Of a stretch of 29,386 nucleotides of DNA, positions 4,489-27,899 are shown piece after piece. Positions within the stretch are counted from its first letter, which is position 1. Each line of letters opens with the position of its first letter. The notes under the pieces were generated by a model. It saw only the letters and a list, made by a program, of their open reading frames with translations, searched no databases and was not told where the DNA came from. The position numbers were made by a program, and so were the translations under genes. The stretch comes from a virus. The stretch lies in the IMG/VR virus record IMGVR_UViG_3300011430_000034, positions 1 through 29,386 of that record; one strand, 5' to 3'.

Positions 4489-4501
4489 TACCCCCCACCA
4501 A
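4489..4501. repeat. Dispersed repeat copy, TACCCCCCACCAA orientation, at a gene junction
   Basis: An exact 13-nt copy, 1 nt past the last base of the upstream TAA and upstream of the membrane-protein ribosome site. It carries the extended ACGTTACC edge. A 24-nt stretch around it (4480-4503) is identical to the reverse complement of 25025-25048, over 20 kb away. Confidence 0.9.
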
Positions 4502-12150: not shown

Positions 12151-12759
12151 TTATCCCGTGGGCCCGAAGGGCCCCGTCTTTTCCATGTGGACATCCACCA
12201 CAACATCAGGGCTACGGGGATCAGGAGAAGGAGGAAGGCCATGGGAAGAGTTACCCCCCACCAAGATTGGCGCTTCACCTGCCTCGGTGGCACGCCGATT
12301 CAGCATTTCCAGGAGCTCCGGCGTGAGCATCATGACCTGGGCCCGCGTTTCCACTTTGCGGGTCGCGACGTATCCCGCACGATCGAGCGCGTCATGCGCT
12401 ATTTGGGTGAGAAGTTTCTCGTCAGTTGTGTTCTCGACGATGTCTTGGAGCCGGTCAAACATGTCGATCGCGAAATCCGAGAGCTCTTCCTTGAATTGAC
12501 GGCGCTCCCTCAGCGATCCACCGGCCGGGAGTTGAGAGGGCAGCGCGGATTGGGAGAAGAAAGTCTGGATGTACCAGGCCTGGAAGCGCTGAAACTCGGG
12601 CTTTTTGCGCCAGGTGCGGATCGTAGCGGGCGAAACTCCCACAGTTTGGGCGAGTTCTGGCACCGTAGCGCCGGGCACATCGCAGACCGTCGCCATGAGA
12701 AGGTGCCAACCTGGCGGAACGTACTCGCCGTACACTGGAACTGGAGCGTGTGTAGACAT
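12151..12759 (-). CDS. terS: Terminase small subunit
   Basis: A 202-aa protein; I chose ATG 12759, preceded by AAAGGGG, over an upstream in-frame extension. An N-terminal helix-turn-helix is clear at residues ~30-52 (ATVPELAQTVGVSPATIRTWR), the usual DNA-recognition module of small terminases. It is followed by a helical oligomerisation region (LRERRQFKEELSDFAIDMFDRLQDIVENTTDEKLLTQ, quoted in part) and a disordered Pro/Asp-rich C-terminus. Position directly before terL with 3-nt spacing supports the call. One dispersed-repeat copy lies inside its 3' part (encoding LVGGN) and another just upstream of its ribosome site. Confidence 0.78.
   Translation of the reverse strand: MSTHAPVPVYGEYVPPGWHLLMATVCDVPGATVPELAQTVGVSPATIRTWRKKPEFQRFQAWYIQTFFSQSALPSQLPAGGSLRERRQFKEELSDFAIDMFDRLQDIVENTTDEKLLTQIAHDALDRAGYVATRKVETRAQVMMLTPELLEMLNRRATEAGEAPILVGGNSSHGLPPSPDPRSPDVVVDVHMEKTGPFGPTG
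12252..12264. repeat. Dispersed repeat copy inside terS
   Basis: Exact 13-nt copy; on the coding strand TTGGTGGGGGGTA is read in the frame giving LVGGN in the disordered C-terminal tail. Confidence 0.88.
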
Positions 12760-12938: not shown

Positions 12939-13047
12939 CTGGGGGTGGGGCGTATGTCTGTGTCTGTATGTAGATGTATCGATGAGTGAAGTGTGGTGGT
13001 ACGATCGTGAGTACTGTATATGGTCATTGTGTTTAAGGAGAGTGTGT

Positions 13048-13212
13048 ATGCTTACGTTTCTGTTGATCATGTTACGTCAGGAAATCGTTGCTGCGACATC
13101 GTCCGGGTTCCAGTGGTTCCTTCTTTCACTGATCGTCGTCGAGCTCACGGTCGAACTGGGGTATTACGTAATGGTTGTGGACCGTTGGGGAGGCGGGGTT
13201 GATCGAGATTAG
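13048..13212 (+). CDS. 54-aa small membrane protein, first rightward gene
   Basis: I chose ATG 13048 because TTTAAGGAG lies 7 nt upstream. The product begins hydrophobic (MLTFLLIMLRQEIVAA), then has a predicted transmembrane helix (FQWFLLSLIVVELTVELGYYVMVV), and ends with a charged tail (DRWGGGVDRD). It is the first of a set of tiny rightward genes with strong ribosome sites. Tiny membrane proteins in this position in phages often act early on the host envelope or exclude competitors, but no function can be assigned. Confidence 0.6.
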   Translation: MLTFLLIMLRQEIVAATSSGFQWFLLSLIVVELTVELGYYVMVVDRWGGGVDRD

Positions 13213-13278
13213 GTGGTACTTGAAATTGAGGTAGTTGTGGTAGTTATGTTTTTGGTTTGTGTTAATTAGGAGGTAGTG

Positions 13279-13461
13279 ATGGAAAAGAAGAATTGGGTTG
13301 AAGAAGGGTTTGTGAAGAAGAGTGTTGAGATGTTGGTTAGGAGGAATGGGAAGTTTTTGCAGGTGGTGGTAGTTGGGAAGGATGGTAAGGAAGGTTATTT
13401 TTTGATGAGTGAGGTTGTTGAGTTTTGGGATGTTAGAGAGAAGAAAGGGTTTGAGTTGTAG
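13279..13461 (+). CDS. 60-aa basic protein encoded almost without cytosine
   Basis: ATG 13279 follows TTAGGAGGTAGTG, an excellent ribosome site (GTG 13276 is a less likely start). The product begins MEKKNWVEEGFVKKSVEML and ends VVEFWDVREKKGFEL, basic with a hydrophobic stretch (FLQVVVVG). The coding strand from 13220 to 13472 contains a single C in 253 nt, so the protein lacks Pro, Thr, Ala, His and Cys and has one Gln. Neighbouring genes have ordinary C content. The gene ends 6 nt before a strong intrinsic terminator. No family recognised. The composition could reflect selection for unstructured mRNA, strand-biased mutation, or recent transfer. Confidence 0.7.
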   Translation: MEKKNWVEEGFVKKSVEMLVRRNGKFLQVVVVGKDGKEGYFLMSEVVEFWDVREKKGFEL

Positions 13462-13466
13462 GAGGG

Positions 13467-13500
13467 AAAAAGCTAGCTGAAAAGCTAGCTTTTTTTTTTT
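13467..13500 (+). terminator. Intrinsic terminator
   Basis: A run of A, then AGCTAGCT, a short GAAA-containing loop, AGCTAGCT, then ten T. The A-tract extends the stem. It ends the first early transcription unit. Confidence 0.92.
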
Positions 13501-13585: not shown

Positions 13586-13614
13586 TTGACGTTGGGGTTA
13601 AATTGTGATAGTAT
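13586..13614 (+). promoter_or_regulatory. Sigma70-like promoter
   Basis: -35 TTGACG (13586-13591), 17-nt spacer, -10 TAGTAT (13609-13614) preceded by TGTGA, which it shares with the promoters at 16015 and 19306. The start point would be near 13621, giving a short leader with GAAGGAGGA before the next gene. Confidence 0.75.
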
Positions 13615-14275: not shown

Positions 14276-14373
14276 TGGGCTGGGGCGAAGGTCCTTTCTC
14301 CAGCGTCACGGTCGTGATCGCGATCGTCTGGCTGATCTGCATCGTACTGAGCGGACGACAGGGGGTGAAATAG
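14275..14373 (+). CDS. 32-aa single-pass membrane protein
   Basis: A very short frame starting with ATG 14275 that overlaps the preceding TGA (TGATG), so it is probably translationally coupled. The product is MGWGEGPFSS followed by a hydrophobic helix (VTVVIAIVWLICIVL) and a short basic tail. It is the second tiny membrane protein of the early module. Confidence 0.5.
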   Translation: MGWGEGPFSSVTVVIAIVWLICIVLSGRQGVK

Positions 14374-14437
14374 TTGGTGTATGTGGTGTTTGTGTAATGG
14401 AAGAGAGAGGATAAACTTCTCTCACTAGGAGGTAGAG

Positions 14438-14724: not shown

Positions 14725-14934
14725 GGAAGGCTACGAAACTCACGTGGCCCGTACCCGACTCCCTTGGCCCTGGACCTAACCCCACCCACCGGCGCAGGCG
14801 TTCCTCGATCCGAGGTAACCTGTTTGGCATTCAAGATCGTGTGAGACTTCGCCGAGCACCCGACGGCGGAATCTTGCCCCCCTACCCAGGTCACCCGTCC
14901 ACCCTTCCATCTAACGTAATGTGTCATCTGTGTA

Positions 14935-15187
14935 GTGAATAATGAAACGTTGGCACTGCTCAGCGTAACTCGTTGAAAACAAAGGACTTCTAATGTATCC
15001 CTTTAATGCATCGATGCCTCTATATATATAATGGGTACAACTCACAATACATATATATATATATACCCCTTTGTGTCGTTGTGTCGTTCTATATATCTCA
15101 CGAGGCATGCAGGCACCCACTGGGCACAGCGTATCTCCTTTGTTCTCAACGACTTAGAGTGAGCCGTGCCTTCGTTTCATTATGCAC
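14935..15187. repeat. Large imperfect inverted repeat, candidate replication origin
   Basis: Arms 14935-14986 and 15136-15187 (52 nt each) match at 43 of 52 positions when one is reverse-complemented, including identical blocks ATAATGAAACG and TCGTTGA. Weaker matching continues outward for about a dozen bases. The 149-nt centre holds alternating TATATATA runs at about 15018-15029 and 15050-15064, and smaller palindromes (GCATCGATGC). A gene-free inverted repeat around an easily melted AT-rich core, between early and replication-side genes, is what phage replication origins often look like. A miniature inverted-repeat element is the alternative, but I see no target-site duplication. Confidence 0.6.
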
Positions 15188-15229
15188 TACACGACGGACT
15201 CGGTATGGGATACAACGGAACTTTTGCAG

Positions 15230-17263: not shown

Positions 17264-17292
17264 TACCCCCCACCAACACTTGGTGGGGGGTA
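17264..17292. repeat. Inverted pair of the dispersed repeat (C-tract first), 13-bp hairpin
   Basis: TACCCCCCACCAA (17264-17276), loop CAC, TTGGTGGGGGGTA (17280-17292): a perfect 13-bp stem with a 3-nt loop in the gap between two genes. A second small hairpin (AGGCCC GAA GGGCCT, 17300-17314) follows before the next ribosome site. Confidence 0.92.
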
Positions 17293-25135: not shown

Positions 25136-25822
25136 ATGACCGACATACTACAGGACGTAGACCGCTTCCTCCGGATCGCGCAGACGGACGAGCTCCGCAT
25201 CCTCCGCGACATGACGGAGAAGGAGCTGTCCCGTCGGAACGAGGCACCTGCTTTCTCGAATGCCCAGACTGTCTCCGGAGGAGCGCAGGCTGGAGCGTAC
25301 CGTGAGGAGGCCCGGGAGAACATGAAATCGGTGTCGATGCACACCTTCGCCACAGGGGCCAAGCGCAGCGAGCGGATGCCCAGATACGACCTCGTCGTCC
25401 ACGACCTCATCCGCCGGATCGCGGAGCGGGCTACAGGAGAGGAGACTCCAAACGGTCCAAGTGGCGGAGCACTCAAGTACGGTGAGGGCAACTGGGAGCG
25501 CGGGCTCCCGACCAGTGATGTGTTCAACCACATCATCCACCACCTCGGACGTCTCCAGGAAGAGTTCCGGGACGGTCTCTCCATTGCGTCCCGTTACGAT
25601 GGCCAGGAACCGTGGCCGTTACGGATGGACGCCATCCGTAACCGCATCAACGCTTTCCTCGCGGAGGACGATCACATTGGGGCTGTGGGATGGGGACTCA
25701 TGGTCCTGTGTCATCAGCTCAAGACAGGCTTCTACCACGACACGAAGTTTGAGCAGGATACGGAAGTGCCACCTGTCCCTGTGGAGACAACGTTACCCCC
25801 CACCAAATCGAGGAAGCGATGA
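25136..25822 (+). CDS. dATP/dGTP diphosphohydrolase-like (MazZ-type) protein
   Basis: A 228-aa protein from ATG 25136 (GGAGTAGACAGA upstream). The core carries the motifs of the phage dATP/dGTP diphosphohydrolase (MazG-like, DUF5664) group: TGAKRSERMPRYDLV, HDLIRRIAERA, KYGEGNWERGLPTSDVFNH, then IIHHLGRLQEEF and EDDHIGAVGWGLMVLCH with acidic residues for metal binding. Such enzymes hydrolyse purine dNTPs to the monophosphate; in S-2L-type phages MazZ supplies dGMP for base replacement. Here it is translationally coupled to queD-queE-folE, so it may shape the guanine nucleotide pool for 7-deazaguanine use. The C-terminus carries a dispersed-repeat copy (TTLPPTK). Substrate not proven. Confidence 0.65.
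   Translation: MTDILQDVDRFLRIAQTDELRILRDMTEKELSRRNEAPAFSNAQTVSGGAQAGAYREEARENMKSVSMHTFATGAKRSERMPRYDLVVHDLIRRIAERATGEETPNGPSGGALKYGEGNWERGLPTSDVFNHIIHHLGRLQEEFRDGLSIASRYDGQEPWPLRMDAIRNRINAFLAEDDHIGAVGWGLMVLCHQLKTGFYHDTKFEQDTEVPPVPVETTLPPTKSRKR
25794..25806. repeat. Dispersed repeat copy at the 3' end of the diphosphohydrolase-like gene
   Basis: Exact copy with the ACGTTACC edge, read as LPPTK, 12 nt before the queD start. The 21-nt context GACAACGTTACC... is shared with the copy at the folE start. Confidence 0.9.
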
Positions 25823-26876: not shown

Positions 26877-27460
26877 CCAAGACAACGTTACCCCCCACCA
26901 AGCGGTTCGACGACCGCAAGATGCAACAAGGGGTCAAACTCCTCCTGGAGGGAATGGGAGTAGATCTGAGTGATCGTAATTACAAGGACACACCTGCCCG
27001 CGTCGCACGTATGTACAGGGAACTGTTTACTCCCCGTCACAACAGCTTCGCCACCTTCCCTGAACAACACGACTCCATGGTCATCCTCCGGGGTCACGTG
27101 GTGCACGGAGTCTGCCCACACCATCTCGTTCCAGTGGAGATGCGTGTGTACGTCGGTTACATTCCGCATAAAGAGGTCCTCGGTCTCAGCAAGCTGGCTC
27201 GAGTCGCTGAACAACCTCTCACAGGACCCATTATGCAGGAAACTTACACAGACGCGGTGGTCGATCTCCTGCAACACGCCACAGACGCGAAAGGCGCTGG
27301 AGTCGTTGTTGTGGGGCGCCATGGTTGCATGCGCCACAGGGGAGTTCGCTCCGACGCAGACGTTGTCTCCTCTGCCATGAGGGGTCTCTTCATGACCAAT
27401 CACCCCACCCGAGACGAGTTCCTCCGGATGATCGGCTACCCACGAGTGGAGGCAAGATGA
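26873..27460 (+). CDS. folE: GTP cyclohydrolase I (FolE)
   Basis: A 195-aa protein; I chose ATG 26873 in the ATGA overlap with queE. It opens the guanine ring of GTP to form dihydroneopterin triphosphate, the first step to preQ0. Motifs: YKDTPARVARMY, HGVCPHHLVPVEMRVYVGYI with zinc ligands C81 and H84, VLGLSKLARVAE, and VVVVGRHGCMRHRGVRS with the third ligand C152. The length is standard for the catalytic domain. Codons 5-9 contain a dispersed-repeat copy (TLPPTK), in a region that is normally variable. Intact. Confidence 0.94.
   Translation: MTKTTLPPTKRFDDRKMQQGVKLLLEGMGVDLSDRNYKDTPARVARMYRELFTPRHNSFATFPEQHDSMVILRGHVVHGVCPHHLVPVEMRVYVGYIPHKEVLGLSKLARVAEQPLTGPIMQETYTDAVVDLLQHATDAKGAGVVVVGRHGCMRHRGVRSDADVVSSAMRGLFMTNHPTRDEFLRMIGYPRVEAR
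26889..26901. repeat. Dispersed repeat copy at the 5' end of folE
   Basis: Exact copy with the ACGTTACC edge, read as LPPTK, just after the folE start. Confidence 0.9.
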
Positions 27461-27615: not shown

Positions 27616-27899
27616 AGCAAACACACAAGGGGAAACGATACCCCCCATCAACGCATGACGAGCGCTACCAGGTCCGGAACGAATACATCGAGCGGGCACT
27701 GCGTACCCTGGCCACCTTGATCGACGAGGAGGTCCCGGAAGGGTGGGGATGGGGCCTGTTCCTCGTCCCGTTCGGAGAGCACGAAGCTGCCCCGAAGGGA
27801 GAGGGAGCCGTGTTCTGGATCTCCAACTCTGAGCGTGACGGGATGATGGACTCCGTCCAGGGTTGGATAGACGATAACAAGAGACGGAGGAAGATGTGA
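27612..27899 (+). CDS. 95-aa protein of unknown function
   Basis: GTG 27612 in a GTGA overlap, with AAAGGAGG 4 nt upstream. Product: MKQTHKGKRYPPSTHDERYQ, helix (RNEYIERALRTLATLIDE), Trp/Gly-rich centre (PEGWGWGLFLVPFGEHE), then GEGAVFWISNSERDGMMDSV and a basic end. Compact alpha/beta pattern. Its 5' part has a one-mismatch repeat copy. Not recognised. Confidence 0.6.
   Translation: MKQTHKGKRYPPSTHDERYQVRNEYIERALRTLATLIDEEVPEGWGWGLFLVPFGEHEAAPKGEGAVFWISNSERDGMMDSVQGWIDDNKRRRKM
27639..27651. repeat. One-mismatch copy of the dispersed repeat
   Basis: TACCCCCCATCAA, encoding part of RYPPSTH near the start of the 95-aa protein, only 37 nt from the exact copy. Confidence 0.6.

Follow-up and report, generated by a model that had tools for sequence, protein, structure and literature searches.

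The first-entering DNA of some phages, T5 for example, avoids restriction sites, and thereby provides a precedent for a constraint on composition that is limited to the DNA expressed first. Sequences that form R-loops consist of an initiation zone with a G-cluster and a subsequent elongation zone, and in both these sequences and mitochondrial CSB II a G-cluster leads into a C-poor transcribed stretch. To our knowledge, no natural gene set dispenses with one of the four bases, and we found none, from phages or otherwise, in the open-licence papers that we searched. Among host enzymes, mycobacterial RNase E cleaves RNA directly 5′ of C, and its sites are more frequent in 5′ UTRs and intergenic RNA (PMC10641625). 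In addition, Campylobacter phages have highly modified DNA while lacking DpdA (PMC6884629).

The stretch of DNA that we analyzed (the window; 29,386 nt) is a virus record from an uncultured phage and resembles each of these systems in part. As in T5, the constraint falls on what appears to be the earliest expressed DNA, but here a single base is missing from one strand, and the tract is bounded by a promoter region and a terminator, which disfavors restriction-site avoidance at DNA entry as its cause. As in R-loop-forming sequences and CSB II, a G-cluster precedes the C-poor stretch, yet the hybrid energetics of this phage region are unfavorable. The likeness to mycobacterial RNase E would lie in an activity that gives every unpaired C a cost, most of all in 5′ UTRs and gaps; that enzyme is a host protein, however, rather than a phage feature. 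With the Campylobacter phages, the family shares genes for preQ0 synthesis without DpdA.

A leader and gene with a single cytosine

Between positions 13220 and 13472, the plus strand holds 99 G, 84 T, 69 A and a single C, where 77 C would be expected. The one C (13360) lies in a CAG glutamine codon and separates C-free runs of 140 and 112 nt. As claimed in the original prediction, which drew attention to this stretch, the depletion is extreme: no 253-nt window has less C (mean of windows, 77 C). With the protein held fixed, 26 C would be expected in the gene, and under the codon usage of the phage itself the probability that this protein is encoded with C avoided in all codons except that for Gln is ≈10^−19.5. 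The encoded protein (MEKKNW...FEL) indeed lacks Pro, Thr, Ala, His and Cys, the flanking genes have normal C, and the ribosome site and terminator that had been described are both present, the latter as a stem and T run that our consensus terminator scan did not list. The next longest C-free runs in the window, of 56 and 55 nt, lie in two neighboring leaders, the first of which had already been tied to what is a strong anomaly. Equally C-free genes do not abound elsewhere in the genome; in a near-identical 49.4-kb record, the only C-free runs of at least 40 nt are these same four, all within 1.4 kb.

The single-C stretch is the visible tip of a larger feature (Table 1). The early genes lie just upstream of TerS and the other terminase genes, on the opposite strand; the leftward genes of the window include TerS, TerL and portal, and rightward a set of small early genes is followed by QueC and by recombination and replication genes. 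Its position and promoter-like elements suggest that the unit is immediate-early. The ORF between the first leader and the C-free gene is apparently an insertion, since it is missing from the relatives L005 and L006, where the alignment has a long gap. We found no close relative among annotated phages: the TerL matches, to Vibrio ICP2-like phages and others, stand at ~23%, and the early region matches none of the annotated phages at the DNA level. An Rfam search of six C-free loci gave no match. A Pfam search for a phage-encoded RNA polymerase also gave none, nor did its controls, and the DxDGD motif is missing from the 1550-aa protein.

Table 1. Elements of the early module in the window
Feature	Position	Strand	Basis
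Conserved G-cluster GGGGGTGGGG in leader; anchor of C depletion across the phage family	12941–12950	+	Motif upstream of TerL in ~27 relatives
C-poor leader of first early gene; ~8–14% C in binned counts; two C-free runs (21 and 25 nt)	12941–13047	+	Sequence, binned C content
Small membrane-type ORF (MLTFLLIMLRQ...), normal C	13048–13212	+	ORF list, alignment
Single-C stretch: leader, 60-codon gene and 3′ end	13220–13472	+	Sequence
Ribosome-binding site AGGAGG	13268–13273	+	Sequence
60-aa early protein, new small family; homologues 0% to 28% C	13279–13461	+	Homologue comparison
Terminator-like stem AAAAAGCTAGCT-GAAAAGCTAGC, then T run; first C-containing part of the unit	13467–13500	+	Sequence
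Promoter-like TTGACG-17-TAGTAT, extended −10, for next unit	13586–13614	+	Consensus scan; L006 has identical −10 and leader
Second C-free leader, 55 nt; equal length in L006	13591–13645	+	Sequence, alignment
Third C-free leader, 56 nt; equal length in L006; then hairpin holding its few C	14360–14415	+	Sequence, alignment

Cytosine depletion across the phage family

Profile searches with TerL returned ~60 relatives of 49–61% identity. In most of them the motif [TC][CT]GGGGGTnnGGGG occurs ~590–1280 nt upstream of TerL (~27 relatives), and most carriers have a −10-like hexamer ~22 nt upstream of the motif. Even in relatives whose terminase is only ~52–58% identical, the same place opens with the GGGGGTnnGGGG leader motif, followed by C depletion. 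The depletion is limited to the leader in many relatives and takes in the whole first transcription unit in others. The longest C-free runs on the early strand measure 1140 nt in L086, 652 nt in L101, 570 nt in L112, at least 367 nt in L038, at least 337 nt in L097 (the runs of L038 and L097 are cut by the contig end) and 227 nt in L100. These six loci come from different metagenomes, and on the terminase side of all of them, as of all close loci, C-free runs are no longer than 33 nt. Six ORFs, one of them a homologue of the window protein, lie within the run of L086; in L101 and L112, C is absent until a terminator-like stem, which carries the first C. Leaders, gaps and genes are C-free alike, with C returning at the terminator stem. 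The mean C fraction in up to 28 phages is 0.21 upstream of the G-cluster; past it, the fraction climbs with distance through 0.07, 0.09, 0.12, 0.16 and 0.20 to 0.23–0.24 beyond 1 kb, and is 0.24 beyond 1.4 kb. We find, then, that C depletion of the putative non-template strand sets in at about the −10 region and G-cluster and extends through leader, genes and gaps; that the depletion is strongest near the presumptive start and fades with distance, being complete up to the apparent terminator in several lineages; and that it is independent of the encoded protein.

The explanation by recent acquisition, raised at the outset, is contradicted by the fact that the C-free state is kept in L005 and L006, with ~84% DNA identity nearby, and in several phages with ~55% identical terminase. 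In L005 and L006, the gene is 87% identical, stretches of 133, 49 and 66 nt are C-free, and the two other leaders hold C-free runs of unchanged length, 55 and 56 nt. L043 and L050 share 97.4% identity over 7.2 kb, up to the motif, and diverge exactly there (L050:9312, L043:658); past this point L043 is C-free and L050 has normal C, with CCCCCC where L043 has GGGGGG. On the TerL tree, the C-free state undergoes at least eight changes. This number and the split between L043 and L050 at the motif indicate that the trait has been gained, lost or exchanged repeatedly and behaves, to judge from these genomes, as a module. It must also be dispensable in some setting, since the sister phages L050, L039 and L106 have normal C in the same module. 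A search of viral and genome contigs for the motif with C-free DNA returned only known family members (L038, L097 and L101) and unrelated low-complexity matches, and searches with alignment A3 and with the small proteins of L043 and L038 gave no further relatives.

The 60-aa protein is predicted to form a three-strand sheet; it has no convincing match in Pfam, PHROG or PDB, and fold searches gave no usable match (best Z, 3.0). Its gene contains 0% C in L101, L112 and L086, ~1% (0.006–0.014) in the window, L006 and L043, and 16–28% in L081, L079, L093, L106, L037 and L050. Homologues with normal C, which had been put forward as counter-evidence, do occur, but they do not make the trait ordinary; they show that it is a property of the transcript rather than of the protein. 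Protein-driven composition is ruled out by the homologues with 16–28% C, and translation or tRNA use by leaders and gaps that are C-free too. The other C-free ORFs are unrelated to the 60-aa family. With C contents of 0% to 28% among homologues, and with two phages that differ despite 97% identity next door, neither the protein nor recent acquisition explains the trait.

Mutation, RNA structure and template modification

The depletion is transcript-bounded, strand-specific and graded from the start, as would be expected if the non-template strand were enzymatically deaminated from C to T during early transcription, and ~70% of the missing C mass at fourfold sites reappears as T. A has been gained as well, however (0.175 to 0.289): the third positions of Gly and Val codons in the C-free ORFs are G 0.36, T 0.35 and A 0.29, versus 0.37, 0.45 and 0.18 predicted from C-to-T change alone. 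All 45 Arg codons among the 803 codons of these ORFs are AGA or AGG. Since the lost C was replaced by both T and A, and arginine was kept as AGR codons, plain deamination is unlikely. The C that persist in terminator stems and the uracil-DNA glycosylase domain on the phage polymerase also speak against it. We consider the one-strand C-to-T change of the original prediction very improbable when taken alone; mutation followed by re-equilibration could, strictly, still produce this pattern.

RNA structure is greatly reduced, though no more than composition dictates. The minimum free energy of the ORF is −14.2, versus −48.3 ± 4.9 for synonymous recodings, and folding per 200 nt is ~−11 to −13 in the C-free units and −56 to −67 in terminase; relative to dinucleotide shuffles, the mean z is ~−0.05 to 0.5 in five C-free regions. 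These differences are consistent with selection for an unstructured early mRNA, in which the lack of C precludes G–C pairs and would let ribosomes load and move freely on the first messages, and the leaders are indeed the most depleted part. Each C added back contributes ~−1.5 kcal/mol of structure, steadily from the first C on, so that a structure-based cost per C is possible, and our argument that selection on structure should tolerate a few C failed for this reason. Against such selection stand the lack of structure avoidance beyond composition, a G fraction of 0.35–0.42 in the C-free units, which is no depletion, and the presence of zero C deep in ORFs, where it is unneeded because ribosomes unwind the RNA. 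We regard selection for unstructured mRNA as rather unlikely. The initial proposal of an mRNA that cannot pair through G–C survives as far as selection on mRNA is concerned; the pairing itself is only one version of it.

The sequence layout of an R-loop is also present, with a G-cluster followed by a G-dense, C-free stretch in the manner of initiation and elongation zones, and an R-loop or replication origin could be anchored there. With nearest-neighbor parameters, however, the hybrid-minus-duplex score of the single-C stretch is less favorable than that of 86% of plus-strand windows, which leaves the R-loop suggested earlier unsupported by energetics. The C-normal sisters, moreover, live without such a stretch, and we find this explanation scarcely credible.

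A different possibility is that the template strand, rather than the RNA, is under constraint. The preQ0 synthesis genes occur in this family: QueC (6 of 8 records searched, these six being the near-complete ones of the first set) and QueD (14 of 16) were detected by HMM, and QueE and FolE were recognized from translated ORFs only. A MazZ-like dGTP/dATP diphosphohydrolase is encoded in 11 of 16 records, and DpdA/TGT (PF01702), as in the highly modified Campylobacter phages (PMC6884629), in none of 16, with all 14 controls positive. In the window, a dATP/dGTP diphosphohydrolase-like protein (PF18909, MazZ-like; 25136–25822) lies directly before QueD and QueE. This gene order suggests that dGTP is removed in favor of a 7-deazaguanine nucleotide, without DpdA. 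If the DNA contains 7-deazaguanine, host RNA polymerase may read the modified G poorly until early proteins act, and a first unit whose template has no G would avoid the difficulty. This account is conceivable but unsupported by correlation, since the C-normal relatives G005, G006, G009 and G013 also have QueC or QueD, and other 7-deazaguanine phages (Campylobacter phage CP220, 9g and CAjan) contain no stretch of 112 nt that is free of C or of G. We judge it improbable.

A possible cost for each cytosine in the first transcript

We infer that selection, with a cost per single C, acts on the RNA or on template G in the first minutes of infection. Our preferred reading, held tentatively and as more of a possibility than a probability, is that selection excludes cytosine from the first transcript and that the likeliest agent is a C-directed host endoribonuclease. 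Like mycobacterial RNase E, such an enzyme would cut single-stranded RNA next to C, mostly in leaders and gaps. A C-free early mRNA would escape cutting and survive long enough to establish infection, and later phage mRNAs would need no such shield once the early proteins act. Each C would then carry a cost, highest in untranslated leaders, and C in stems would be tolerated. The C that remain in early regions show no clear avoidance of the RRCNU context and are paired no more often than chance. A cytidine-directed RNase is our leading guess, of low certainty.

Depletion that is strongest in untranslated leaders and weaker in translated genes would also be produced by avoidance of Rho-dependent termination, given that C-free RNA cannot form a rut site. 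Yet Rho needs C-rich stretches, and 1140 nt of closely packed genes at zero C far exceeds what evasion would take, which makes this account quite doubtful. Zero C and a per-C cost would both be accounted for if C in RNA were poisoned or scarce early in infection, for instance by ddhCTP, the chain-terminating CTP analogue of prokaryotic viperins. Host transcripts would suffer too, however, 50-nt C-free leaders ahead of normal genes would be of little use, and we found no link to this phage; we hold poisoning or scarcity of C to be highly improbable.

Whatever the agent, we see an even chance that the three-letter (A, G and U) immediate-early unit, several genes long, is a dedicated counter to a host process acting on every C of RNA or every template G. 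If so, the first message of infection follows a one-base exclusion rule that is exchanged between phages as a module. The unit shows how far a sequence can bend and still encode proteins, albeit ones nearly devoid of Ala, Pro, Thr, His and Gln. It also points to a so far undescribed pressure that acts on the first viral RNA, whether from a C-directed RNase, from a block at the modified template or from a new defence. In practice, coding without C could be of use where a stable, unstructured mRNA is wanted.

Several further features of these genomes deserve mention. The gene at L020:13651–16128 (G001, a near-identical genome; it starts at window position 27896) encodes a DNA polymerase of family A that carries a uracil-DNA glycosylase domain at its N terminus, and in several related phages the match also overlaps dCMP deaminase genes. 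A 13-nt element, TACCCCCCACCAA / TTGGTGGGGGGTA, is repeated at junctions between genes, on either strand, and is often read as LPPTK at protein ends; the window holds at least 18 copies (for example at 4489–4501, 12252–12264, 17264–17276, 25794–25806 and 26889–26901). The sequence TTGGTGGGGGGT is present in 20–22 copies per near-complete genome, and among the loci compared exact copies are found only in the window's own clade. Between the early and middle genes, an AT-rich segment (14930–15192) contains an imperfect inverted repeat with arms of 101 nt (71% complementary) and is a candidate replication origin. Finally, direct repeats of CTAAAGTTGgaaCTAAAGTTG or CCTAAAGGTaggaCCTAAAGGT adjoin the early −10 region, upstream of the G-cluster in L101 and L097 and at ~9318–9345 in L050, and may form an operator.
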